Source of the DNA: Ignavibacteriae bacterium HGW-Ignavibacteriae-1 | Lineage (GTDB): Bacteria > Bacteroidota > Ignavibacteria > Kapaibacteriales > UBA2268 | Direction: 5' to 3' | Assembly: GCA_002839825.1 (NCBI GenBank) | Contig: PGYU01000013.1 | Coordinates: 1 to 64,000, forward strand | Length of the DNA: 64,000 nt | Part shown: positions 3,653-52,545 of the stretch, piece by piece | How the letters are laid out: each line of letters begins with the position of its first letter | How positions within the stretch are numbered: position 1 is the first letter of the stretch | Notes under the pieces: model-generated | What the model was told of the DNA's origin: nothing | Database searches by the model: none | What the model saw: only the letters and a program-made list of their open reading frames with translations | Made by a program: the position numbers and the translations under genes

Positions 3653-4579
3653 ATGAAAAAAATGTTGATTACAGTATTTATATTACTTTTATTAGGAATA
3701 ACGGTACTAATCAGTACTTCTAATAAAAGTAAATTCGGCACTTCTGCAAAAGAAGTGAATTGGGTTGAACTCAATAGTGGGTTCAAAGAGGCGACCTTTG
3801 TTAAGGATAAGAATGTTTGTTTGTCATGCCATGAAGAATCCGCAAACAAATATAAACATACATCACATAGTCGCGCTTTTGAATTTAGTAAGGAAGGAAC
3901 TCTGGAGTCAAAAGACTGCGAATCCTGCCATGGTCCTAGAAGTAAACATATAGAAGACCCGGATGGAAGCCTTACTTTTACTGAAGAACAGTATTCAAAA
4001 GTTTGTATGCAGTGCCATCAGGATAACAGTCGAATGTACTGGAGCGGAAGTATTCATAAGTCATCTGATGTAAATTGCGTAACCTGCCATTCGGTTATGG
4101 AACAAAAGAGTGATGAATTTTTACTCAGCAAGAACAGTCAGACTGAAGTATGCTCTGAATGTCATACCGATGTTAAAGCAAAAATGAACAAGACTTCTCA
4201 TCATCCGGTAAAAGAAGGACTGATGGATTGTTCTTCTTGTCATAATGCTCATGGAGCTCCCGGGACAGGTATGTTAGTTAAAGGTACTATAAATGAAACC
4301 TGTTATACTTGTCATCAAGACAAAAGAGGACCTTTCACATGGGAACATGCCCCTGTACGCGAAGATTGTTCAAATTGCCACGAGCCACATGGTTCGAATA
4401 ACAGAAATCTATTAACAACACAAAATGCATCATTATGTGTTAGTTGTCATCAGTATGGCGGTCATATCAATCAGTATCGATACAATCGCGTAAGCACTCC
4501 TTACGGAAATGGTTGTGTGAACTGCCATATGACTGTTCATGGTTCAAATCATCCATCAGGTGCTAAATTTACAAGATAA
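3653..4579 (+). CDS. Decaheme c-type cytochrome, MtrA/DmsE-like
   Basis: Ten CXXCH motifs (CLSCH, CESCH, CMQCH, CVTCH, CSECH, CSSCH, CYTCH, CSNCH, CVSCH, CVNCH); N-terminal signal/anchor; barrel gene immediately downstream. Confidence 0.93.
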   Translation: MKKMLITVFILLLLGITVLISTSNKSKFGTSAKEVNWVELNSGFKEATFVKDKNVCLSCHEESANKYKHTSHSRAFEFSKEGTLESKDCESCHGPRSKHIEDPDGSLTFTEEQYSKVCMQCHQDNSRMYWSGSIHKSSDVNCVTCHSVMEQKSDEFLLSKNSQTEVCSECHTDVKAKMNKTSHHPVKEGLMDCSSCHNAHGAPGTGMLVKGTINETCYTCHQDKRGPFTWEHAPVREDCSNCHEPHGSNNRNLLTTQNASLCVSCHQYGGHINQYRYNRVSTPYGNGCVNCHMTVHGSNHPSGAKFTR

Positions 4580-4592
4580 TAAGGAATAAAAA

Positions 4593-7136
4593 ATGAATAC
4601 AAATAACACTTGTATATTAATAATAATTATTTTATTAATATCATTAGTTTCTGCTAAAAGTCAGGAATCGCTTCAATTTAACGGTCAAATAACTCCGGGA
4701 ATAGGTTGGATAGACCTAAATACAAATTCCAGTAAATTTTATGAATACAGAGATATGAAAGAAGGGTTTTATATACCCGGCGTTCAACTGAATGCTATTC
4801 AGCCGAACAGTGGTTTTTATCTTCAGTTTGGTGGCAAAAGATTACTTTGGGACGACCAGGTAATCCGTCTTAATCTTGGTGATTACACAAGTTTCTGGAA
4901 TATATCCATTGACCATAAAAAGACACCAAACCGCTTAAGTAACAAGGCTATGACACCATATTCTTATCGTGGAGACGGTGTTTTTAATTCTGCAGGATAT
5001 GTTGGCATCATCAAAGATACCATTGATGCAAATGGAACCGTATCATTAGTACCTACGAAAGCACAAATGCATGTTAATGATTCGCTCGTAGCACAATTTC
5101 TTGAGAAAAACTTATTGCCTATAGATTTGGGAACTCAACGTAATAATACTTCTGTTACATTAAATTTGATGCAAACTGAAGAATTAAAATATAGTCTGAC
5201 TTATATGCACGAAACAAAAACAGGTAAAAGAAATAATTATGGCACACTCGGAGACAGACCGCCGAGAACATTAAACGTTCAATTACCTGAACCGGTTGAT
5301 TACACAGTAAGTGAAGTTCTCGCTAATGCTGAATATCAGACGAATGGATTTCAGGCAAGATTCAACTACACTTTGTCCAGTTTTTCAAATCAGTTGGATT
5401 TTCTGAGATGGGATAATATATTCTTTACTCCGGATACTCCAAACGACTATATTACAACTGTTGCAGGCACACCGCGTAATGCTTCACTTGTTGGTCAGAG
5501 AGCTTTGGCACCGGATAATATTTCGCATTATTTTACCCTTGCTACATCAATTATTTTGCCCTTTGAAAGCCGACTTACTGCTACAGGTTCTATTGGAATG
5601 ATGAGTCAAAATGAAAACTTACTTCCTTATAGTTATAGCGATCTTGGAGGCGATAGAAATGCTGCTAATGGTGATTCACTTAATTGGAATGACCCGAATA
5701 AATTGCCAATTAACACTGCTAGTGCTAAAATTAATACAATGAGGCTTGATTTCGAGTATTTGATTAATCCTTTTAATGCTCTGAATCTCAAAGCTTATGC
5801 ACGTTATTATAAATTAGATAATCAAACACCTATAAATCAGTGGCGATATGTTACTCAGGACGTTGCGACCACCGACGGCGATGTTTCTTATGTAAATTAC
5901 AGAAGAAATTTAGCTCATGGTTTTGATAATATGAAATTCGGTATAGACTTGAGATATTATCTTAATTTTTGGAGAACCTCTATTGGTCTTGGTGCTGTTA
6001 GGGAGAATATTAACAGGGAATATCGTGAAGCCAATACAGGCGAGAATATAATCAATGCATCTTTGAGAACACGCCCCATGAAGTGGCTTTCATTATCTGC
6101 AGGATACTTAATGGGTGACCGCCAGATTGACGAATATAATTATATGGTTACTAGTCAGAGCTATTGGTATTCATTTGAAAGAGGAGCTAATCAGGTTGAT
6201 AACCCACAGTTCCTATTTGCGAACCATCCTGATTTAAGAAAATATGATGTTTCGGATAGAAAAAGAAATAAAATGAATGTTTCTGCAAATCTGAATTTAT
6301 TGGATGACTTGGATTTATCGGCTTCATTTACTAACAAATCAGACGATTTCGATTCGCAGGTTACTCCGGTTGCACCATTTGCAAATACGCTTGTGCCGCT
6401 CCCGAACCCTGAAGATAAAAATGCTATGACACCCGGTAAACAACTTGGACTACTTAAAGACAACCGTCAAAATATATCAATTAATTTACAATATGTAGCG
6501 TCAGAGTGGCTTACTTTATCTATGTATGCTGACCAAGAAAATGCAAAATATGATATTCGCGGTATGGTTTATAATGAAAACTTAAGAAATCAACCTAGTA
6601 GCCAATCAAGTTCGCAACCAACACAATTAGGACCGTGGAACGATCCAAACAGATTATATATGTCGAACACAGAAGAAATCACAAATTCTATCGGACTTGG
6701 TGTTATGATTGAAGTCATTCCCGGAAAATTAAGATTCTCTACAGATGCTAATGTTTCTATGGCAACTGTTGATATGATATATTCCGGTTATGGCTCTGAT
6801 CCTTCATATTTGGGTAGAGATTGGGAGACTTTTGATTTCGGTTTCAACAGCCCGGGGAAAGCAGAATTTAATCAATACGTTGTAAATGCATCTGTTGAAT
6901 ATAAAGTATTCAACAATTTAACCTGTGGTTTGCATTTTATGTTCAATCAATATGAAATTACAGACTGGATTCAGGAACCTTCCGGAGCATGGGTAGAATT
7001 TGTCGAAAGTGAGAATTTCCTGCGTGATACATCACGAGATAATCGTTGGGGTAATCGCTTGGTTTCTTTGGGTAGTTACCTTGCACCAGGTTATACCGCT
7101 AATGCAGTATTTTTAAATATTACCTATATGTTCTAA
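4593..7136 (+). CDS. MtrB/PioB-like decaheme-associated outer-membrane beta-barrel
   Basis: 847 aa, signal peptide (LISLVSAKSQ), many alternating beta strands, C-terminal ...FLNITYMF; 13 nt after decaheme cytochrome. Confidence 0.85.
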   Translation: MNTNNTCILIIIILLISLVSAKSQESLQFNGQITPGIGWIDLNTNSSKFYEYRDMKEGFYIPGVQLNAIQPNSGFYLQFGGKRLLWDDQVIRLNLGDYTSFWNISIDHKKTPNRLSNKAMTPYSYRGDGVFNSAGYVGIIKDTIDANGTVSLVPTKAQMHVNDSLVAQFLEKNLLPIDLGTQRNNTSVTLNLMQTEELKYSLTYMHETKTGKRNNYGTLGDRPPRTLNVQLPEPVDYTVSEVLANAEYQTNGFQARFNYTLSSFSNQLDFLRWDNIFFTPDTPNDYITTVAGTPRNASLVGQRALAPDNISHYFTLATSIILPFESRLTATGSIGMMSQNENLLPYSYSDLGGDRNAANGDSLNWNDPNKLPINTASAKINTMRLDFEYLINPFNALNLKAYARYYKLDNQTPINQWRYVTQDVATTDGDVSYVNYRRNLAHGFDNMKFGIDLRYYLNFWRTSIGLGAVRENINREYREANTGENIINASLRTRPMKWLSLSAGYLMGDRQIDEYNYMVTSQSYWYSFERGANQVDNPQFLFANHPDLRKYDVSDRKRNKMNVSANLNLLDDLDLSASFTNKSDDFDSQVTPVAPFANTLVPLPNPEDKNAMTPGKQLGLLKDNRQNISINLQYVASEWLTLSMYADQENAKYDIRGMVYNENLRNQPSSQSSSQPTQLGPWNDPNRLYMSNTEEITNSIGLGVMIEVIPGKLRFSTDANVSMATVDMIYSGYGSDPSYLGRDWETFDFGFNSPGKAEFNQYVVNASVEYKVFNNLTCGLHFMFNQYEITDWIQEPSGAWVEFVESENFLRDTSRDNRWGNRLVSLGSYLAPGYTANAVFLNITYMF

Positions 7137-40254: not shown

Positions 40255-41997
40255 ATGATGAAAGATAGAAAAATTGATACATTCCAAGTTAATTGTTTGA
40301 GCCATCAAACTTTTGTTTATGCTATCCTTTTGCTTATGCTGATACTTATGTCATCATATTCAAAAGCAGAAACAGACACGCTCAACTGGGTTTTTACAGG
40401 AAATGCAAGTGTATCTTCAGACTTTTATTCAATCAATTCATCTCCCGAAAACAGTATCAATCGTCGCCGCCCTACAGATTTGCACAGATTACTCTACAAT
40501 TCTAATTTGAAATACGGAATTTTCGAGTTGCCAATAACAATAGTACTATCTTCCAATCAGACAAACTTTACAACTCAAGCTCCCGGGGCACAGACATTTA
40601 TGCAATATTTGCAGAACCCGATGAATATAATAAGAATTGCCCCTCGAATTGGCGACCTGAGCCTTCAGTTTGGGTCATTTGTCCCTCGATATTCCGAGCT
40701 TTCCACCGGCAATGCCAATGTATTCGGGCTTGGTGCTGAATATACTCCCGATAATCTTGCAATCTCGGTTTTTTACGGAATTTCGCAACGCGGAGTCGAA
40801 TCCGATACTTTGCGCGGAATTCGTGGGGCATATGAGCGACGGAGTTTGACCGCACGAGTGCATTATGGAAGCAAACGCACAGGGCTTATCGGTATAAACG
40901 TGGTCGCTGCCGAAGATGTCGAAAGTTCGGTGAAATCTCCAAGTTTGGAACTTTTTCCCGAAAGAGGCTTTTTGACTACGATTAATTTTCTCGTTCCATT
41001 CACTGAAAGAATTTTTCTGGAGGGCGAAGCAGGTGGTTCACTTTTCACTCGCAACACGCGAGACAATGAAATCGAGAGCAGTAGTTTAGAATTTTTGTCA
41101 GTTTTGACACCTATTAAGACATCTACTCGAGCTGATGGTGCCGGAAGATTGAAATTCGGGATAGAATATGACACTTGGGGAATCGCAGCAAATGCGCTTT
41201 ACGTAGGAGACGGCTACGTCCCATTGGGGTACAGGTTTTTCATGTCGGACAGATTAGAGCTGACTTTGATGCCGAAATTACGTTTGTTCGACGGCACTAT
41301 TTTCGTTTCAGGCTCGATTGGCACACGCATTAACAATCTATCAAACACAAAATCCCAAACAAGCGAACAATTGTTGGCATCTTTAAATTCTGCAATTCGA
41401 TTTACAGATTATCTCAGTCTCAATGCGGGATATTCAAACTTTGGATTCAGAAACAGGACAGATAATGACACGCTGAAAATTGATGTCATTTCATCATCGT
41501 TTAATATTTCGCCCAATCTGATTTTACGTGGACAAAAGCTGATACATTCGATTACGCTTAGTTTTGCATTCGATGATTACAAAGACTACAACACATTTAC
41601 AACTGTAATCAACGAAAATTCTACTCGCAGCATAACCGGTGTTCACGTAATCAACTTCACCGAAATGCCTTTGACGACAGATTTGACGCTTATGCAACTC
41701 ACAAACGACATCAAGCCGTTCGAACTTAGCATCTATTCGATAATTGCAGGTGTGTCATACCGTTTTTTCGACAATACGCTCAATCCATCATTAAAAATTT
41801 CATACAATAACACAAGTTACTCGGGAGCCGGTTCGGATAATTCAATCGGGTTCAGGGCAAAAGTGGCTTATATTTACAACAAGAGTTTGACATTTACTGC
41901 CGAGGCATCATCCAACCAATATTCATACGGCGAATTGCGGAGTAATGCTTCCTTTGGCGAGACTTTCGTGCGACTTATGGTCGCATCAAGATTTTAG
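40255..41997 (+). CDS. Outer-membrane beta-barrel protein, first gene of three-gene unit
   Basis: 580 aa; signal peptide (SSYSKAET); alternating amphipathic strands, C-terminal ETFVRLMVASRF. Confidence 0.7.
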   Translation: MMKDRKIDTFQVNCLSHQTFVYAILLLMLILMSSYSKAETDTLNWVFTGNASVSSDFYSINSSPENSINRRRPTDLHRLLYNSNLKYGIFELPITIVLSSNQTNFTTQAPGAQTFMQYLQNPMNIIRIAPRIGDLSLQFGSFVPRYSELSTGNANVFGLGAEYTPDNLAISVFYGISQRGVESDTLRGIRGAYERRSLTARVHYGSKRTGLIGINVVAAEDVESSVKSPSLELFPERGFLTTINFLVPFTERIFLEGEAGGSLFTRNTRDNEIESSSLEFLSVLTPIKTSTRADGAGRLKFGIEYDTWGIAANALYVGDGYVPLGYRFFMSDRLELTLMPKLRLFDGTIFVSGSIGTRINNLSNTKSQTSEQLLASLNSAIRFTDYLSLNAGYSNFGFRNRTDNDTLKIDVISSSFNISPNLILRGQKLIHSITLSFAFDDYKDYNTFTTVINENSTRSITGVHVINFTEMPLTTDLTLMQLTNDIKPFELSIYSIIAGVSYRFFDNTLNPSLKISYNNTSYSGAGSDNSIGFRAKVAYIYNKSLTFTAEASSNQYSYGELRSNASFGETFVRLMVASRF

Positions 41998-42024
41998 TGC
42001 TAATTTTCTAAGGGAGTTTGAATT

Positions 42025-45000
42025 ATGAGGAAAATATTACCAATTTCCTTGCTTTTATTAGCAAGCATTTTTACAAGTTCGTTCGGACAATTGAACGTCC
42101 AGTTGGCTATTTCTCCCAATCCGTCGCCATATCTGTCGGATTGGCAGGAAAGGAGAGAAACAGCAACGATGATAATAACAAACTCATCTTCAGACCAATT
42201 TTTTGTAAAGTTGCATACTCGAATATATCAGGGTGGATTCTCGGACGGCGAAATTCAAGCCCAGACGATTACCGAGAGAATGCCTGTGATGTTTATTGAA
42301 CCAGGCGTCACAGTTTTGGATGCTACGGAGTTGATTCCATACGAATCAATGGAATTTTACGGACATGTAAATGAAGTTGTGATACGAACAGGAAAATTAC
42401 CTGCAAATAATTATACGATTTGTGTTCAACTTTTGGATGCTGAATTAAACGAACCCTTGACGCAAGACCAATGTCGGCAGTTCTTTATAACCGATTATCA
42501 AGGTCCTATGTTGCTTTTGCCGGAAAATTTGAGCGAATTAAAACCGGAATCTGTGAGTAATATAATTTTCCGTTGGACTCCTGTAGTTCCGCAGCCATTC
42601 GAGCCGGTTACTTATACTGTCGCAGTATTTGAAGTATTGCCCGGACAATCGCCCGATATGGCATTTCAGGCAAATTTCCCGATTCTGACTAAAGAGGCGA
42701 TGAATACGAATTTTACTCTTTGGACTCCGGATTTCGATTATCCTCAAACGGGAATGCAGTATATTTGGAGCGTTCGGGCTCTTGATTCGCGTGGAAATCC
42801 CTTGGGGCAAAATGACGGTTGGGCAGAGCCATTTATATTCAACGTCATAGAACGTAGCAGCGGATTTGGCGGTAATTGTTCGTGCGAGGATGTAAAGAAA
42901 ACGATTGAAACTCGAGATTGCAAATCATGCTATTCGATTGAAGTAGCAGGATTGCCGATTGATATTAATTGCGGTGTCCCGATTTATCTTTCTGAGGTCA
43001 ATTCACTTGTTACAGTCAAAAGTGATTTTCCGGTTGATTGCGGCGAGCATAGTTGGCTGTTGACGGGTACCGTATTTAAACCCAATCCTGAATATTTGAC
43101 AACTGATGCCAATGCTTCAAAATATATTACTGAACAAATTGAAATTCCGCTATCAAATACAAATACTGCTAACTTCGAGAGTTTTGGTTGGGGCAAATTC
43201 GAGCTTATTCATTCTATTAATGGTCTGACTATTTCAAGATTTCCATTTTTCTCGGACGAGCCACCAAGCGACGAGGTGCCAATCGCCAAAGGCGGTCATT
43301 TTATTAAAATTGTCAGCCCGCAAGATGCTTGTGTCGGCTCGGTAATTAGCGAAGTGGTTGACGGAATGGTAACTATCACATGGGAATCAACCGGAGAATT
43401 CGTTGATTTCGAGGTGGTAATTTTGGAAAATCCCTGCGGTAGATACCGTTATCCGGTTCCAAGCAAAGTGCCCGCAATTAAAGTGCCTGCAATGTCGCGA
43501 GTGCCATACGAAGGCGAAATTGAAGGTGAAGGCGAAGGTGGCGGTGGCGTTGTTCGTGAAGTACATAAAGAAAAAGTTACAGGTCGCGAAACTCGTTCAG
43601 ATTGGAGTACGACAAATTCTGTAGTTGTGCCACTGGCTGAATTTCTTGATGGAGGTGATGCATTTATCGTACAAATTGAGGGAAATGCCACATCAACAAA
43701 TGGCGAATTTTTTATGGTTTACTCCGAGCCAATTTGCTCCAGATATCGCCCGCTTGATTCTGATGGCGTACCAGTTGAGACTACGCCATGCTATCCACCA
43801 AGTCACCCCGAAAATGCCTGTATGCCCAATGTTAAAACCTTGCCCGGAAGCGAAATCTCACTTGGCGTATATTCAGAAGACTTAAAGTTGTTCGAATATC
43901 CGCGAGCTGTAGCTATGACTGCCGATGCTGTGGATTGGGACATGGTTGAAGTTCAGTGTAATCCAAACGAAGATTGCCCCGAAACTCGGAGTATGGAACA
44001 ATTCGCGGTTCGCGATTTTGTTAGCCCAACTCAATATAAATGGGAGCTCATCGGCAAGGGTTCACTCAATGACCCATTCGATGTCGGCAATATTTCGCAA
44101 CTTACAAATGACATTAATGATATTGTCAAAAAAATCGCTGAATTGAAAGAAAGAATTGATTCACTCAATCGTGCAAAAGATTTAAGAGTAAGCACACTTA
44201 AAACTCAGCAAGAAAATGCTGAAAAGCAAATCACAATCACAGACAGCACTATCAAAATATTAAGAGATTCGTTGATAACAATCACTCGAACTTTGACTGA
44301 AAAACGAGACAGCTTGACAATCATCATAAACGAGCGGATTGTTTTGAGTGATAGGATTATTTCAAAGCGTGATTCGGTTGACGGTGTGATTTTGGATTCC
44401 ATTTCATATTATGACGAACTGCTGTTAAACAAGCCCAGCAGCTACGAACTCGGATTATACGATGAAATTGCGGACGCTCGTGATGAAGTTGATGACGCGA
44501 ATAAAGACTTGCGGCAATCTCAGACAGACCTCGCCGACGAAGCCAAACGATTGCAAGATGAAATTATTCAAGCGTCCGATGCCGTTAAAACCCAACAAGA
44601 TGTAGTTAATAATATCAACAATCAGATTGAGGGAAATCAGCAAAGGGTAATATTTTTCGAGCGGCAGGCATATAAACTATTCGGTCAATTCGCTACTGTT
44701 GCTCGGAATTACATGCGCGAACGCGACCAATATCGTCGTTCAATGAGCAATTTCATCATTCAAAATTTTGATTTTGGTAGCGATATTCACGACACATTAA
44801 CTAATATTTTCCAATTTGCCGATAATGTAGCCGAAGACATTATCGGCTCGACAAATCAACAATATCGAATGACGCGCCTTGCAATTTTCGATTCGCTTAA
44901 TGTATCGTTTGCAAATGTAGCCGATGATAGTTGCAGAGCGAAATCTGATTCATTGCGTCGTGCTTTGTGCTCATCATCGCTTACATTTGTTTCGAGCTCA

Positions 45001-48000
45001 TATACACTTTATCGTCAAGCGTTGAGTTCCGCAATTGTTCAGAATTTTGTTGTGGATACATCTGCGATTGACAGCATTAAAAAGTACAGAAATATAGTTC
45101 GTTCTTTAGAGCCACAACTCCAAACAGCCAAAATTCAGTTGGAACAAACTTATGATGCTTATAATCAAGCTTTGGAAAATGATTCGACAACAATAGCACA
45201 GATTTTACAAGCACAAAAAGACCTCAAGGACTCGATTACAGCTCGAGAACAACGCTTGGCAAAGGTGGAAACCGAATTACGCGATACCGTAAGCAACCGA
45301 GAAGAGAAATTCACCAATAAACGCGTCGAATTTGTTGACCGGAAAGCCTTCCATGAGGAATTTCGCCAAATGACTATAATTGATATATCACGCCTGAGTG
45401 ATACTGTCCAAGTGAAAATATCGGATTCGACTGTGTGCATTACGGAGATAATCAAAATCCAAAGTGATAGCACTATAATCGAGAGCGATATTAAAATTCA
45501 AGAAGAATTGCTCAAAACGCTTCAAGATATTCTTGCACTCGATTCGAATGACATCAAAAAAGAAATTGATGATATGATAAGCAAACTCGAAGACGAAATC
45601 AAAGCCTTAGAAGACAAACTTAAAGCACTGAAAGACAGTTTAAATGTGAGTTTTGCAGGTACGAAAACTGCAACCGGTCCTAAAGTCTATTATATCCCGC
45701 CACCCTTGGAAGATATAATGAAAGATAAAGCGAGATTTGAAGAACTAAAAGATTCAGTTGCCAAAGCCGAAACAGACTTATTATTGGCAAAAGCCGAAAA
45801 AGAAGCAGGGCAAAAACAATTAGCGAGAATGTTAGAGAGAATTGGGCGCTCATTAATTCAATATGTTAATGCTGAGGAAAAAATCAGCGAGCTGGAAGAT
45901 GCGAAAAATGAGGCAGAGGATAAACTCGGCGAAGAAGACGAAGAATCCAAAGAATATGGCGAAAGATTAGACGGAATCCGCCAAACTGCCGAATCTGCTA
46001 AAAATACATCCGAGCAAAGACTAAATGATTTGGACCCTGACAAAATCAAGAGTGAGCTTGTTGTTATCAATCAGGACATCGTGACCAAGAAAGTTGACGT
46101 TGCCGACGCACTCAATGATTTCAATGATTCATACCTTGATTTAATAGACAAATCCTCCAATCTCGGTCAGTATAGAAAACAATTACAAGCACTGACAAAA
46201 CAATATGAGTCTACGCTTGACCGTGCAAATGAATTAAAAACAGCACTCACTCAATCACAAAACGAAGTTGCCCGTATGCGAGCTTTGAATGATTATGCAA
46301 GGACTCAATGGGCGAATGCTGATTTGGATAAAAATGAACAAGCATATCAAAACCAACAAGACAAAATTCAGCTTTTGGTAACGGCAATTCAAGTATTGCT
46401 CCAAAATCATAACAGCACTACTAATCAACAATCAGACGCCGAAGATGAGTTTATGGAGAAAATCGGCAAAGTAGCCGAAAAAATGGAAGAATTAAGTGAT
46501 TTATTTGATAATTATTTCGAAAAATGGAATGAATATCAGGCAGAAAAGCTGCAAGTCGCACATTGGAAAGTAACTAAAGTCAAAGCTGAAGACCTCGAAG
46601 GCAAAGTAGATGATGCCGAAACCAAACTCAACCAAATGATAAAAACTGATAGCCTTGATAAGCAATTCGACGTCACAAAAGTAGATGATGAACTGAGGAA
46701 ATATCAAGACGCAAAATCAAATGCTGATTCGGCTATTGCCGAAATCGTAAGAAAAGGCAAGGATTTGCTCGATGAATTAGATAAGAAAATTGAAGAAGCC
46801 GAAGATAAAGTTGTTGAGAAAAAGGAGGATTTACGCAAATTTTTATTAAATGAATTTAACACCGTTGACCTCGTCGTTCAGCTCAAAGTAACTGTAGATG
46901 ATGATGTAGTTGACGGATTTCGTTATGACGACAGCCAAAAAATCAAGTCAAAAGAACTTAGATATATGTCCAAGCGTGTGCCGGAATTCGCCAATGAATA
47001 CCCCGAAGTATCGCCTCCGCCTATTGACTTAATGGCGGGAGAATGTATGGTGAAATATAATTTCGATAAAGACCCCCCAATCACAGCTACCGACCCGAGC
47101 TTCTACAGAAAAGAACCTCGCACAATTGCACTTGTTTACAAAAATGGCGAGCCGCTTTGGCCCGAATGGCCCGTAATTGAAAACTCTGCTCCTACATTGT
47201 CTAAAGATATTGTGATTATGGCAGGGAATGCCCAAGATACTGATGATTTCTCTATTACCTGCGGCACTGATTGCGATACAAAACCCCTCAAAAGCGGAAT
47301 TATTGAATTGCCGCAATACATTTGGCGAGGTAATGGCAAATATTATCAGATTAACACGGCAAATTTAGAACATCAAGTCCTTGCTTTTTGGGAGCCGCCG
47401 GATGTGCCTCAACCATTTTGTGAAAAAGATTTCGAGGTAGTCAATGACTTCCGGGCAGCTCGGAAGGGACCCGATGACGATGTCTTGGACAAAAAGACTA
47501 AACCCCTGATTGTTCCCGGTGTGTTGATTGAAGTACCCGAAAAGATGATTGGTTGGTCCGAAAAGAAAGATTCAATCAAGGCAAGAGTTGTTAAAGGTGA
47601 CCACACCGGGCTTGCGGGAGAAAAAATCGAATACTCTGTCAAACTGCTCGTGGGTCGCTCAGAAGATTACGGATTTCCAACTGATTCTGTCAAAGTCGTT
47701 ACAACTGATGGTGACGGATACGCACCAATTGAATTCAACTTCGGCAAAGGATTTGCAAAATTTGAAATCAAAGTGAAATGGTTCCGAAAAGATACTTGCG
47801 AAATTAAAACAATTGAAGTCGAATCCCCACTCAAGATTCAAATGCTCCGATTTGCTTCGGGATTGAGCAAAGAAGCTTTAGATGGCGCCATGAAAATATG
47901 GGATGGCGCATCTGTTCAAGACATTGCCGGCACGATGAGCACTGATGACGAAAAGAGAATTTACGGAATTGCAGGTTTGTTCGATAATTATCCGAATTTT

Positions 48001-50505
48001 ATCAACGAAGAGTATATAAATTACGAACTTGATGACCCGAAACTCGCTGTTGACCCTGATTCTGTCGAAACCTCATTATTCGGCATTGCCGTCACCTATA
48101 TAGATGGCGATGTCCCCGAAAATGCAAAATTGGAGTTGACTGCACGTTGCGAAGAAGTTTTCGAACCCATTGCTGACCCATATGAAGATTCGATGGAGCT
48201 AAATACCACAAAAGAAGACAGATTCAAAATCGGCATTGATAAGTCAATTTTTACCGTTGTGATGGATGAACCATTCACAGTTGGCGAATTGATAAGCGGA
48301 ACGGGAAAACTTGAAATCGCTCCGGGCGGGCTTAATCCGGCATTTTTGACTCAACTTCTGAACATTGTTTTAGTCGCTGACGATATTTTCGTCGAAAATG
48401 AAGGGCAAGACATTGTAGCTCAATCCGGCAGAGTAATTTGGGAAGCCCCTGACGGCTTATCGGCGGATTTGCCGGGCTTCACATTTACATTAGATTCGCT
48501 GTCTTTGCGGGCGAAGCAAGCTGCTCAAATGGGTGGAAAAATTTCCAGTTCCAGCGACAAATTGCCTCACCCTGTTGGATTTGACGCTGAATTATATTCT
48601 GACGGTGAATTTTTCGGCAATGTTTATAATTTACCGGAAATAAATATTTCATCTTTCCGGCTAAACCAAGGAACTTCACTCGCAATTGATTGGTCGAGCA
48701 CTCGTTCTGTTGCCGGATTTAACAACAGCTTCAAGGGTATCGTAATCCGAACTGCAACTCTCGAGTTTCCCAATGTTTTCTCTCGAGAAAATTCACCCGA
48801 TAAAATGGCTCTTATTGTTGACAATTTTGGAATTTCAAGAGAGGGTGTTCAAGGCACAATTGCACTAAAAGGTGAGGTGACGGGCGGATTTGCAGGTTTT
48901 GAAATGACTTTGGAGCAAATCGCACTCGAATTCGAAATGGGTAAATTAAATCCCAAAACAATCACGCTCGAAGGTAATCTCACACCACCCTCAAACATTG
49001 TAGATGGTACAATTGCATTCAAAATCACCAAATCCGGCGATGATTGGATTGGCGAGATGACTACTAAGGGTGAAATTCTCGTCCCTTCAATCGGATTGAC
49101 GATTGCCTTAAATGACGGCACTAAGGCTGAATGGAATACTGCCAAAGAAGAAGGCTCATTGCTCGTCAACGGCATGTTTAAGTCCCGATTTACAGGGGAA
49201 ATTAATTTAGAAAATCTGAAAATCACGTCCGGTGGAGAGATAGATGCTGATGCTGTCCGTGTGAAAACTGACGCTGCTCTTGTTATTCGCGGATTCAATC
49301 TCAATCTCGATGAAGTAGCTTTAGTTCGAGTTTCCGGGGAAGGCTCTACATCTCAGTATGCTATCGAAGTGTCCGGTGGATTTGGCTTCCCGAGCATTCC
49401 GGTCAAGAAAATCGAAGGCAAATTAATCGTCAGCCCGGGATTGAAAATCGCAGTCGAAGTTTCTGATGCGGAAATTTCATTCGAGTACGGTCCCGTCGAA
49501 TTTAGCGGCAAAGTACAATTTGGAAATAATTATTTCAAGGGTGATTTTGATGTCGGGCTTAAGCAACCCAAATTTGGGCTAAAATGTTCTTTCATAATTG
49601 GTACTCAGGAAATCGATTCCGTTAATTATTACACTTATTGGTATGCAGAAATGCAACTTGCGCTCGGTCCAACAGGTATTCCACTTGGTAGCACAGGGCT
49701 TGCTATCACAAGGATTGGCGGTGGAGTGGGTTGGAATTACGACCCGCCAGTTGGTTCGCAGGAAGGTGCGCCGCGCAATACTGACGGATTCGCATTCAAG
49801 GCTCTGATTGGCATCGGTACTGTGCCCGGAGGTAAATTCCTGAATAGTCTCTTCACGATGGTCTATACTCCATCTAAGTTTTCGCTCGGTGGCAAATTAT
49901 GGTTACTCGAACAAGAGGATAATATATATGGCGAAGGTGTTTTGAATCTTTATTTTGACACTCAATCACCAAATGCTATTGATGGTTTCGTAAAAAGCTT
50001 TGTGGGAATTCCCGACGCAGAAGGAAAAATTATTCGTTTAGACGTCAAAATTAATTATAAAATAACTCGCGGCGGCAGTATTAGCGTAGAAAGCGAAACA
50101 CTCAATGGTGCTGTTTTGGATTTACTGAAAGCCGAAGGAACTGTTGTAATTAACGAAAATATTATTGATTTGAACGGACGAATATTTCTCGAATTCTACA
50201 ATGATGATATTAGCGTTGCCGGAGTTTTGACCTTAATTGTTGATTTCAAAGCCGAAGCATCAGGCTCATTCAAATATTTAGTGAAACAAACGCGGCTATT
50301 CGCAGGCGTGAAATTTGAAGGACATATTGACATCAATCTCGATACTCCATTTGGTGTTGCCGATATATTATCAGCTCAAGCGGAAGTGAATATGCAATTA
50401 GACGCTCGCCCAAGTCGAATCGAAGCGCGCGGTTTTGCATTTTTCTCCTATAGTGCATGGATTTATAGCGGCAATGCAAAAGTAGATTTTGGTTTTACAA
50501 TTTAA
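42025..50505 (+). CDS. Giant (2826 aa) secreted protein: Ig/FN3-like N-terminus, long coiled coil, beta-rich C-terminus
   Basis: Continuous ORF; signal peptide (FTSSFGQ); coiled coil at nt ~44090-46860; C-terminal repeated amphipathic strands incl. GSTGLAITRIGGGVGWNYDPP. Confidence 0.93.
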   Translation: MRKILPISLLLLASIFTSSFGQLNVQLAISPNPSPYLSDWQERRETATMIITNSSSDQFFVKLHTRIYQGGFSDGEIQAQTITERMPVMFIEPGVTVLDATELIPYESMEFYGHVNEVVIRTGKLPANNYTICVQLLDAELNEPLTQDQCRQFFITDYQGPMLLLPENLSELKPESVSNIIFRWTPVVPQPFEPVTYTVAVFEVLPGQSPDMAFQANFPILTKEAMNTNFTLWTPDFDYPQTGMQYIWSVRALDSRGNPLGQNDGWAEPFIFNVIERSSGFGGNCSCEDVKKTIETRDCKSCYSIEVAGLPIDINCGVPIYLSEVNSLVTVKSDFPVDCGEHSWLLTGTVFKPNPEYLTTDANASKYITEQIEIPLSNTNTANFESFGWGKFELIHSINGLTISRFPFFSDEPPSDEVPIAKGGHFIKIVSPQDACVGSVISEVVDGMVTITWESTGEFVDFEVVILENPCGRYRYPVPSKVPAIKVPAMSRVPYEGEIEGEGEGGGGVVREVHKEKVTGRETRSDWSTTNSVVVPLAEFLDGGDAFIVQIEGNATSTNGEFFMVYSEPICSRYRPLDSDGVPVETTPCYPPSHPENACMPNVKTLPGSEISLGVYSEDLKLFEYPRAVAMTADAVDWDMVEVQCNPNEDCPETRSMEQFAVRDFVSPTQYKWELIGKGSLNDPFDVGNISQLTNDINDIVKKIAELKERIDSLNRAKDLRVSTLKTQQENAEKQITITDSTIKILRDSLITITRTLTEKRDSLTIIINERIVLSDRIISKRDSVDGVILDSISYYDELLLNKPSSYELGLYDEIADARDEVDDANKDLRQSQTDLADEAKRLQDEIIQASDAVKTQQDVVNNINNQIEGNQQRVIFFERQAYKLFGQFATVARNYMRERDQYRRSMSNFIIQNFDFGSDIHDTLTNIFQFADNVAEDIIGSTNQQYRMTRLAIFDSLNVSFANVADDSCRAKSDSLRRALCSSSLTFVSSSYTLYRQALSSAIVQNFVVDTSAIDSIKKYRNIVRSLEPQLQTAKIQLEQTYDAYNQALENDSTTIAQILQAQKDLKDSITAREQRLAKVETELRDTVSNREEKFTNKRVEFVDRKAFHEEFRQMTIIDISRLSDTVQVKISDSTVCITEIIKIQSDSTIIESDIKIQEELLKTLQDILALDSNDIKKEIDDMISKLEDEIKALEDKLKALKDSLNVSFAGTKTATGPKVYYIPPPLEDIMKDKARFEELKDSVAKAETDLLLAKAEKEAGQKQLARMLERIGRSLIQYVNAEEKISELEDAKNEAEDKLGEEDEESKEYGERLDGIRQTAESAKNTSEQRLNDLDPDKIKSELVVINQDIVTKKVDVADALNDFNDSYLDLIDKSSNLGQYRKQLQALTKQYESTLDRANELKTALTQSQNEVARMRALNDYARTQWANADLDKNEQAYQNQQDKIQLLVTAIQVLLQNHNSTTNQQSDAEDEFMEKIGKVAEKMEELSDLFDNYFEKWNEYQAEKLQVAHWKVTKVKAEDLEGKVDDAETKLNQMIKTDSLDKQFDVTKVDDELRKYQDAKSNADSAIAEIVRKGKDLLDELDKKIEEAEDKVVEKKEDLRKFLLNEFNTVDLVVQLKVTVDDDVVDGFRYDDSQKIKSKELRYMSKRVPEFANEYPEVSPPPIDLMAGECMVKYNFDKDPPITATDPSFYRKEPRTIALVYKNGEPLWPEWPVIENSAPTLSKDIVIMAGNAQDTDDFSITCGTDCDTKPLKSGIIELPQYIWRGNGKYYQINTANLEHQVLAFWEPPDVPQPFCEKDFEVVNDFRAARKGPDDDVLDKKTKPLIVPGVLIEVPEKMIGWSEKKDSIKARVVKGDHTGLAGEKIEYSVKLLVGRSEDYGFPTDSVKVVTTDGDGYAPIEFNFGKGFAKFEIKVKWFRKDTCEIKTIEVESPLKIQMLRFASGLSKEALDGAMKIWDGASVQDIAGTMSTDDEKRIYGIAGLFDNYPNFINEEYINYELDDPKLAVDPDSVETSLFGIAVTYIDGDVPENAKLELTARCEEVFEPIADPYEDSMELNTTKEDRFKIGIDKSIFTVVMDEPFTVGELISGTGKLEIAPGGLNPAFLTQLLNIVLVADDIFVENEGQDIVAQSGRVIWEAPDGLSADLPGFTFTLDSLSLRAKQAAQMGGKISSSSDKLPHPVGFDAELYSDGEFFGNVYNLPEINISSFRLNQGTSLAIDWSSTRSVAGFNNSFKGIVIRTATLEFPNVFSRENSPDKMALIVDNFGISREGVQGTIALKGEVTGGFAGFEMTLEQIALEFEMGKLNPKTITLEGNLTPPSNIVDGTIAFKITKSGDDWIGEMTTKGEILVPSIGLTIALNDGTKAEWNTAKEEGSLLVNGMFKSRFTGEINLENLKITSGGEIDADAVRVKTDAALVIRGFNLNLDEVALVRVSGEGSTSQYAIEVSGGFGFPSIPVKKIEGKLIVSPGLKIAVEVSDAEISFEYGPVEFSGKVQFGNNYFKGDFDVGLKQPKFGLKCSFIIGTQEIDSVNYYTYWYAEMQLALGPTGIPLGSTGLAITRIGGGVGWNYDPPVGSQEGAPRNTDGFAFKALIGIGTVPGGKFLNSLFTMVYTPSKFSLGGKLWLLEQEDNIYGEGVLNLYFDTQSPNAIDGFVKSFVGIPDAEGKIIRLDVKINYKITRGGSISVESETLNGAVLDLLKAEGTVVINENIIDLNGRIFLEFYNDDISVAGVLTLIVDFKAEASGSFKYLVKQTRLFAGVKFEGHIDINLDTPFGVADILSAQAEVNMQLDARPSRIEARGFAFFSYSAWIYSGNAKVDFGFTI

Positions 50506-50523
50506 TTAATTCGGATAAAAATA

Positions 50524-52545
50524 ATGAAAAAAATAATTTTTATATTTCTATTTTATTCAATTGCAATTTATTCGCAAGACCCTGCGTATTTAATTTTTCG
50601 AAATTCAGGAAATGTTTATTTAAAATGGGAATATTTGCGAGATAATAATCATGAGCATTTCAATATTTATCGTCAATATGAAAATAGCGACACATGGGAA
50701 CAAATAAATCAAAAACCACTTAAATTAATTACGGATATTGACGAAATTGTTTATATTGGCGGCGAATATTACGGCTCTATTTATTTATCTTTAATGGGCG
50801 TCAAACGCGAAAAACGAGATATTACGAAAGCTGATATCATCGCTTGGCAAAATAATGCTGAAGCGTATTCCATGTTGAACGCATTGTCAGTCACTCAGCC
50901 GCTGATTTCCGAGCTAACCGGAACTTCATTTCTCGACGTGCCCCAATCCGGTGCACGAGTGCGATATAAAATTAATTCCATGAGAGCGGCAGATGAATTG
51001 CATTATATCACAAGCGAATTTATTGACCCGAAAATTGATGATATTGTGCCCACGCCGGACGATATTTCAATCAATCCGTTAAATAATTCCGCAAATATTA
51101 TATGGTCACGAAATTTAGACGTATTGCAATCGGGGCGTGCTGTTAATTTTAATATTTATCGTGCTGATAATATTACCGGTCCATATTTAATTGTAAATTT
51201 TGCTGATATGTTCCAAGGGATTTTAACAAGCGAAGAAGTCGAAATTGATACTAATTATTTTAATTTTTTAGATGCAAATTTAATTAACGGAAAAACTTAT
51301 TATTATTATTTAACGGGAGTTAATACTTTTGGATTTGAAAGCCAACGCAGTTCAGTTTATGAAGTAGTTCCGTCGGATAATCGCGTACCTATGTCGCCCG
51401 GCGATATTACAATTAATGAATTCGGTGGCAGACTTAAATTATCATGGAGAAATATATCTCGTGTCAGACCAATAGGTTACGAAATATTCAAATCAATTGG
51501 CGATACTGACAATTTCGTAAAAGTATTTCCGACTTTGGACGTTCAATATGATCCCGAAATTACAACTTGGACTGATGCTGATGTTCGTGAAGGCGAATTC
51601 TACAGTTATTATCTCGTAGCAATTGGTCAAACCGGGGTTCGAAGCGAGACTTCAGATACTCTCACTTTTATCATTGATGATTATATTCCACCTTCTGCAC
51701 CGGTAGGCGTTGTGGCAGTCGGAGATACGGGTGCTATCAAGCTGAGTTGGGAGGCTAATACCGAACATGATTTGCTCGGCTATCAAATTGAACGCTCATC
51801 AGATTCGAGATTTGCTACACGCTTTTTGGTAAACGAAAAGCCAATTACGGGAACTGAATTTATTGACACCGTGCGCCGCGAATCCCAAAGCGATATTGCA
51901 TATTTTGTTTACGCGCTCGACAAAAGCTACAACCGTTCACTTCCATCAGAGCGAGTCATAGTGCGGGTGATAGATGTCGTGCCGCCCTTGACACCCGAAA
52001 TGACAAGCATTTACGAAGAGGGCGATAGTTATTTCGTCAATTGGACAAAATCCCCCGATAGTGACTTGAAAGCCTATCGTTTGTATCTTTCAATCGGCGA
52101 TTCGAGCAATTTCATACTCAAGACCGAAACTAATTCTCTTACATTTTCTGACCGAATCAGCGAACGCAAAGAGCATTATTTCAAAGTCTCCGCCGTTGAT
52201 TTGTCCGGCAATGAATCTCCTTTTTCACGAATCAGACGGCTCGAAATTGAGGACGAAGCTCCCCGACCACCGGATTCAGTACAAGTAGTTCAAGAAGAAA
52301 AATATGTCAATATCGAATGGAAAGCGCCCGAAGACGAGCGTGTAGTGGGCTTCTTCATTCAGCGAAATTATGTCGAAAAAGGTAGCCCGATGGTTGATTT
52401 GGCTGTCTTGAAAGCTGATAAGAGCAGATTTATGGATTGGGATGTCGATATTAATCGCGAATGTACCTATTATATCTACTCTCGCGACGAAAAATGGCGT
52501 TTGAGCAAACCGGTGGTGATAAATTATGTACCCAATTCAAAATAA
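50524..52545 (+). CDS. Secreted fibronectin type III-like repeat protein
   Basis: 673 aa; signal peptide (SIAIYSQ); repeats of type KLSWEANTEHDLLGYQIERSSD / VNWTKSPDSDLKAYRLYLS / NIEWKAPEDERVVGFFIQR. Confidence 0.85.
   Translation: MKKIIFIFLFYSIAIYSQDPAYLIFRNSGNVYLKWEYLRDNNHEHFNIYRQYENSDTWEQINQKPLKLITDIDEIVYIGGEYYGSIYLSLMGVKREKRDITKADIIAWQNNAEAYSMLNALSVTQPLISELTGTSFLDVPQSGARVRYKINSMRAADELHYITSEFIDPKIDDIVPTPDDISINPLNNSANIIWSRNLDVLQSGRAVNFNIYRADNITGPYLIVNFADMFQGILTSEEVEIDTNYFNFLDANLINGKTYYYYLTGVNTFGFESQRSSVYEVVPSDNRVPMSPGDITINEFGGRLKLSWRNISRVRPIGYEIFKSIGDTDNFVKVFPTLDVQYDPEITTWTDADVREGEFYSYYLVAIGQTGVRSETSDTLTFIIDDYIPPSAPVGVVAVGDTGAIKLSWEANTEHDLLGYQIERSSDSRFATRFLVNEKPITGTEFIDTVRRESQSDIAYFVYALDKSYNRSLPSERVIVRVIDVVPPLTPEMTSIYEEGDSYFVNWTKSPDSDLKAYRLYLSIGDSSNFILKTETNSLTFSDRISERKEHYFKVSAVDLSGNESPFSRIRRLEIEDEAPRPPDSVQVVQEEKYVNIEWKAPEDERVVGFFIQRNYVEKGSPMVDLAVLKADKSRFMDWDVDINRECTYYIYSRDEKWRLSKPVVINYVPNSK

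Follow-up and report, generated by a model that had tools for sequence, protein, structure and literature searches.

A recurrent Bacteroidota gene module joining an outer-membrane barrel to a giant protein with a TANFOR-type N-terminal domain

Do three adjacent genes of Ignavibacteriae bacterium HGW-Ignavibacteriae-1, coding for a barrel, a giant protein and an FN3-like protein, belong together, and if so, in what kind of system? They lie within a stretch of 64,000 nucleotides (positions 1 to 64,000 of contig PGYU01000013.1, assembly GCA_002839825.1), called the window below. An earlier, sequence-only reading had proposed an undescribed surface or envelope-spanning apparatus built on the giant, a coiled-coil protein of 2826 amino acids (aa). 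Its account of the open reading frame (ORF) sizes, the strand, the 27- and 18-bp gaps and the signal peptides is exactly what we found, the hydrophobic Sec-type signal sequences at the start of all three proteins having been judged by eye, without a signal-peptide predictor. The locus is laid out as follows.

40255..41997, + strand: outer-membrane beta-barrel gene, 580 aa (~24-26 strands, no POTRA, C-terminal Phe)
41998..42024: intergenic gap, 27 bp
42025..50505, + strand: middle (giant) protein, 2826 aa, with N-terminal signal sequence (ORF; full-length orthologues in several other lineages)
50506..50523: intergenic gap, 18 bp
50524..52545, + strand: FN3-repeat protein, 673 aa, with signal sequence (Pfam fn3 in orthologues; 3' of the middle gene in most loci)

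None of the three window proteins scored above cut-off with any Pfam or NCBIfam family.

Pairing of the barrel with the N-terminal domain of the giant

The barrel and the N-terminal domain of the giant (N-domain) form a near-obligate pair. Among 248 Bacteroidota genomes, a strong N-domain match (E up to ~1e-25) was present in 55 and a strong barrel match (E up to ~1e-30) in 57, with both in 54 and neither in 190. The corresponding Fisher value is 9e-50, but the genomes are not phylogenetically independent, and the spread of the 54 over 20 families, as labelled by the search tool, is a better guide than the p-value. Physical linkage was marked too, 72 of 91 N-domain genes having a barrel within 12 kb, versus ~1% by chance. 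The exceptions mostly vanish at weaker scores: two genomes (G029, G207) hold fused genes, a third (G333) has an N-domain at E 1.6e-18 about 6 kb from a barrel, and once weaker matches are counted only the barrel of G183, a short fragment, remains without an N-domain. The test is mildly circular, as the barrels that went into the barrel profile had been found beside N-domains; the absence of the barrel from the 190 genomes and a single-sequence barrel search are independent of this. Finally, N-domain and barrel were found fused in one ORF in six cases, from the same class as the window (L189_2, L190_3, L191_2, L192_2, L107_4 and L178_4). Recurring fusions together with near-obligate pairing argue that the two may be in physical contact.

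Gene order is conserved as well. In the class of the source organism, the barrel was found in 110 and the FN3 protein in 167 of 245 genomes; their matches were often 6-9 kb apart, and the regions fetched mostly held a giant gene between them. Across loci, the order barrel-middle-FN3 was scored 32 times, barrel-middle 16 times and middle-FN3-barrel 5 times, with median gaps of 21 bp between barrel and middle gene and -4 bp between middle and FN3 gene, and with a single exception every locus has its module genes on the same strand. When the N-domain alone served as the anchor of a scan, the barrel was recovered in 28 of 36 loci, some of the remainder being contig ends. The proposal of one conserved co-directional module, which the genes not co-occurring in relatives would have contradicted, is therefore sustained by the 32 loci in strict order and by the middle-FN3-barrel variants.

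We also considered that three ordinary envelope genes had become neighbours by chance, since the module is single copy in the source genome and flanked by housekeeping genes (HrcA-like, sugar nucleotidyltransferase, CoA ligase). The recurrence of the triplet in dozens of genomes, the spread over 20 families, the fusions and the co-occurrence refute this explanation, which can for practical purposes be dismissed.

A single-sequence BLAST with the C-terminus of the giant had given a narrower picture, with matches in the genus only (3 of 54 genomes of the family) and nothing in viral contigs or plasmids. The lineage-orphan reading that this search alone would have suggested was overturned when searches with the barrel and the FN3 protein, followed by the N-domain profile, revealed a wide family.

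The third protein was rightly called FN3-like: of 17 orthologues, 8 gave a Pfam fn3 match, the best at E 5e-21, and the window copy itself fell below the pass mark.

The giant protein and the TANFOR class

The giant can be divided into eight parts, all on the + strand.

aa 22-280, 42088..42864: divergent TANFOR-type N-terminal domain, immunoglobulin (Ig)/FN3-like, with two invariant Cys (TIGR02542 and orthologues)
aa 281-590, 42865..43794: variable region (low identity in alignment)
aa 595-690, 43807..44094: conserved domain 5' of the coiled coil (alignment)
aa 700-1205, 44122..45639: first coiled-coil arm, helical break at ~920-1010 (heptad z 6.4 and 3.4)
aa 1206-1235, 45640..45729: conserved Pro-rich turn YYIPPPLE, possible hairpin tip (alignment identities)
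aa 1236-1615, 45730..46869: second coiled-coil arm (heptad z 5.5 and 4.0)
aa 1640-1960, 46942..47904: strongly conserved domain of the full-length form (EPRTIAL...EWPVI; alignment)
aa 1961-2826, 47905..50502: beta-rich C-terminal region (hhalign, AlphaFold2 model)

TANFOR proteins are polymorphic toxins of Bacteroidota (Jana, Salomon and Bosis 2020, PMC7073777). Near their genes lie FN3 proteins and proteins with SprB/T9SS tails, which are substrates of the type IX secretion system (T9SS), and export by this system was hypothesised (PMC7073777). A check with the TANFOR profile TIGR02542, suggested in the sequence-only reading, returned a divergent match for the window N-domain (16 bits, E 0.008, profile positions 80-137 of 145), the sole one in its own genome. 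The match was firmer in orthologues, 17 of 28 N-domains being hit, with a best E of 2.3e-14, in a member-by-member scan of a 28-sequence alignment. This alignment was too variable for scanning the collection, for which a 10-sequence subset worked. Reciprocally, the loci found with TIGR02542 (L160-L167) all matched our home-built N-domain profile at E ~3e-33 or better, and TIGR02542-found loci also possess the barrel, adjacent in L161, L162 and L166 and nearby in G437, G500 and G434. At the curated cut-off of TIGR02542, no genome passed among 297 of the phylum sample. As judged by profile, the N-terminus of the giant is homologous to TANFOR, and the middle protein is a borderline member of the TANFOR class as published.

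The label "undescribed" is thus too wide for the middle protein. The module as such and the barrel-TANFOR link are well supported, and within the literature that could be searched the label holds for them: the word "barrel" does not occur in the text of the TANFOR paper (PMC7073777), and a search for other papers on the domain, outside which lay subscription literature and preprints, returned one single-mention paper only.

How much of the giant belongs to the module? Full-length orthologues of ~2660-2830 aa, with ~28-32% identity over the whole length, were found in several lineages. Elsewhere the middle proteins are shorter, mostly ~1500-2100 aa. What they have in common with the giant is its N-terminal ~260 residues (22-42% identity) and partly also the beta-rich region, of which aa ~2200-2680 recur in short forms (E 2.5e-10 and 2e-15 by hhalign against short-form families). 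These shorter proteins did not match the coiled-coil part, and the coiled coil is thus an insert and not the core. That the apparatus is built on a coiled-coil protein is therefore not supported: the coil is optional, present only in one set of middle proteins, and the constant parts, by sequence comparison, are the TANFOR-type N-domain, the barrel, the FN3 protein and often the beta-rich region. Two side observations concern the middle genes. Tandem or duplicated TANFOR-type copies stand behind one barrel in L078 (4746-11445), L080 (5231-12865) and L121 (9932-20527), the last with one short and one full-length form, and N-domain proteins of 3100 to >3700 aa occur in metagenome-assembled genomes of KSB1, Gemmatimonadaceae and WOR-3 (L140, L141, L146, L136).

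The coiled coil itself is as had been claimed: aa ~700-1615 contain 0.8% Pro, and four segments give a heptad signal 3.4-6.4 standard deviations over shuffles, unlike the flanking domains, which give none. These two domains show weak similarity to each other (hhalign E 6e-4, probability 28%). Between the arms, aa 1201-1260 keep 26-33 of 60 identities in distant orthologues, compared to mostly 5-18 in the flanking coil. The conserved Pro-rich turn suggests that the coil folds as an antiparallel hairpin with YYIPPPLE at its tip, plausibly a rod of ~55-75 nm from residue count. SMC/Rad50 matches of the coiled-coil arm were set aside as generic coiled-coil similarity.

The C-terminal region raised the possibility that barrel and beta-rich giant form a conduit of LptD/AsmA type that carries lipid or glycan across the periplasm, the coiled coil serving as spacer there. 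Its long amphipathic strands are in keeping with this idea, and LptD and ApoB100 were the top Foldseek matches of an AlphaFold2 model of aa 1640-2826. We rejected both as the fold of the C-terminus: they were matched at a TM-score of ~0.1, uninterpretable given the model (pLDDT 62 and pTM 0.37 overall, the last ~350 aa mostly at 80-90 and all strands). AsmA, TamB, DUF6603 and LptD gave no match in this region in Pfam/NCBIfam (the first three at E up to 1), which lends no support to two family assignments, DUF6603 and AsmA-like, put forward for checking, and Pfam, NCBIfam and PDB sequence searches yielded no family for the C-terminus. Neither a transmembrane anchor nor an inner-membrane part was found, so that the "envelope-spanning" part of the proposal is unsupported. 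Moreover, the beta-rich region was undetected in many barrel-linked TANFOR-type proteins, and known members of the class include toxins. A conduit is therefore unlikely.

Could the giant then be a polymorphic toxin in its own right, whose C-terminal toxin domain went unrecognised? The TANFOR-type N-domain and the C-terminal toxins of the published class (PMC7073777) point this way. Toxin tips are interchangeable, however, whereas the C-terminal 1187 aa of the giant keep 32-39% identity between distant lineages, little less than the 37-45% of the N-domain. The next genes 3' are the FN3 gene and a CoA-ligase-type gene, with no immunity gene in those positions, and no toxin family of Pfam or NCBIfam was matched. 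We consider a toxin very improbable here; a C-terminus so conserved, with no immunity gene behind it, makes the cargo of the source organism look structural rather than toxin-like.

Taken as a whole, the present loci resemble the published class in the homologous N-domain, the giant secreted protein with a Sec signal, the enrichment of FN3 proteins nearby and the occurrence in T9SS-positive Bacteroidota. Some barrel-linked loci even show the published layout of SprB-tail protein, TANFOR gene and gene in immunity position: in Flavobacteriaceae the barrel is immediately preceded by an SprB-repeat/T9SS-tail protein and immediately followed by the TANFOR-type giant, after which comes a small gene in immunity position. 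They differ in the barrel partner, unmentioned in PMC7073777, and the window copy differs further in its score far below cut-off, conserved non-toxin C-terminus, coiled coil and lack of an immunity gene.

The barrel and its nearest known systems

A barrel of ~580 aa had been predicted, and modelling agrees with it: an AlphaFold2 model from 24 sequences (mean pLDDT 83.8, pTM 0.69) consists nearly entirely of ~24-26 long strands, beginning at residue 46 with no POTRA-like domain, and the protein ends in ...ASRF. Foldseek placed it closest to MtrB (6r2q_B, E 1e-9, TM-score 0.55), followed by the FimD/PapC ushers (~0.3-0.4), which points to a wide barrel and not to family membership. No Pfam family scored over cut-off in 24 barrel orthologues, PorP/SprF being absent among their matches at E up to 0.1; NCBIfam, TIGR03509 included, gave 0 matches for the barrel, and a PDB sequence search found no family. 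The ushers and MtrB/PioB therefore share with the module a wide barrel of 24-26 strands, as the closest solved folds, but the TM-scores are 0.4-0.55 only, no sequence relation was found, and the module has neither chaperone nor haem proteins (no CxxCH within the three genes).

Barrels of one Flavobacteriaceae-like family, f39, carry an extra C-terminal ~240 aa (L180_8, L183_4, L184_3, L185_1, L186_2, L187_1, L188_1), without Pfam match in the two copies scanned, L184_3 and L185_1. Positions ~113-272 and ~287-378 of the barrel profile also gave weak partial matches in a distinct family of 800-930 aa common in Bacteroidota (for example G343:C4:464645-465283), possibly a distant relative.

Another barrel of the window is separate from that of the module. 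At 3653-7136, a secreted protein of 308 aa that has 10 haem motifs (CxxCH) stands directly before an 847-aa outer-membrane barrel of MtrB/PioB type (4593-7136; TIGR03509, 184 bits versus a cut-off of 240), a pair that is likely an extracellular electron-transfer conduit.

The type Vb secretion system (T5bSS; CdiB-CdiA-CdiI) consists of a barrel gene, a giant cargo with a conserved N-domain and a variable C-terminus, and, in toxin versions, an immunity gene. With this system and contact-dependent inhibition the module would share a dedicated outer-membrane barrel followed by a giant cargo, a layout analogous as far as the genes tell. The barrel differs by its ~24-26 strands, versus 16 in T5bSS, and by the lack of POTRA/Omp85, and the N-domain is Ig-like where T5bSS has a beta-helix domain of two-partner secretion (TPS). 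By these features the module is not a member of two-partner secretion and would only work like it.

How the module may work

The three genes of the window are probably one copy of a module that is widespread in Bacteroidota, in which the barrel serves an exported giant docking through its N-domain and the FN3 protein is an accessory. Sec would take all three proteins through the inner membrane. The wide outer-membrane barrel would be dedicated to the giant, whose Ig-like N-domain of TANFOR type (~260 aa) would be the docking or targeting element, and the multi-FN3 protein would act as a stalk or adaptor. The barrel might translocate the giant, or keep it attached to the cell surface once it has been exported in some other way, possibly by T9SS. 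Cargo in Flavobacteriaceae appears to include published polymorphic toxins, with a gene in immunity position; that of the source organism would be a coiled-coil rod between conserved domains, with a beta-rich C-terminal region. The genes are linked; export or display, the direction of transport and the stalk function are what we infer from this linkage, and a surface or envelope role, the part of the earlier proposal that stands, is the best inference.

Several observations weigh against this reading. The window copy, at 16 bits, does not reach the curated TIGR02542 cut-off of 67 bits. Outside Bacteroidota, N-domain proteins of Gemmatimonadaceae (L146), WOR-3 (L136) and KSB1 (L140) have no barrel in the stretch fetched, and in many Flavobacteriaceae loci the stretch fetched did not yield an FN3 protein. 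The N-domain of the fusions precedes the barrel and could be periplasmic, which is not cargo-like. Lastly, TM-scores to known translocation pores are only ~0.4-0.55, and many barrels score alike.

It is quite possible that T9SS performs the export and that the barrel does no more than anchor or shuttle the TANFOR protein, as a partner dedicated to it in the outer membrane, in the manner of SprF for SprB; this sub-variant overlaps with the reading just given. SprA was present in 58 of 58 Bacteroidota genomes that have the module, versus 133 of 190 that lack it (Fisher 4.5e-8), and in the source genome (E 3.5e-285); T9SS export was also proposed for TANFOR proteins, beside whose genes T9SS substrates lie (PMC7073777). 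However, the listed SprA-negative genomes are mostly of one family (f35), hence few independent lineages, and the association does not prove dependence. As the sequence-only reading had stated, four other window proteins carry a T9SS sorting domain (two slightly under the curated cut-off), while barrel, giant and FN3 protein gave no match to it (TIGR04183/PF18962 and type B). The Gemmatimonadaceae genome G512 has an N-domain protein and no SprA, though also no barrel in the stretch fetched. Compared to T9SS with PorP/SprF, the module likewise occurs in Bacteroidota, with a barrel beside a giant surface protein and together with SprA; it differs in a cargo without sorting domain and a barrel without sequence match to PorP/SprF or any Pfam family. 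For orientation, the source genome (3.2 Mb) contains at least 150 matches to Por_Secre_tail (PF18962; 150 of 216 candidates scored).

More tentatively, and with some doubt, the barrel and the TANFOR N-domain could constitute a system of secretion or display at the outer membrane of Bacteroidota that had gone unrecognised and depends neither on T9SS nor on type V secretion. In it, a wide barrel would recognise the Ig-like N-domain and let through or anchor interchangeable giant cargo, which would be toxins in certain lineages and long coiled-coil rods elsewhere, and the FN3 protein would be an accessory.

As the exit route of TANFOR-class toxins, the prior study could only hypothesise T9SS (PMC7073777). 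The near-obligate, previously unmentioned barrel, with its fusions to the N-domain, is a concrete export candidate and could be the outer-membrane partner that this protein class has been missing. As the same delivery-type domain heads a structural-looking, non-toxin cargo in Kapabacteria/Ignavibacteria, the system would be broader than toxin delivery.

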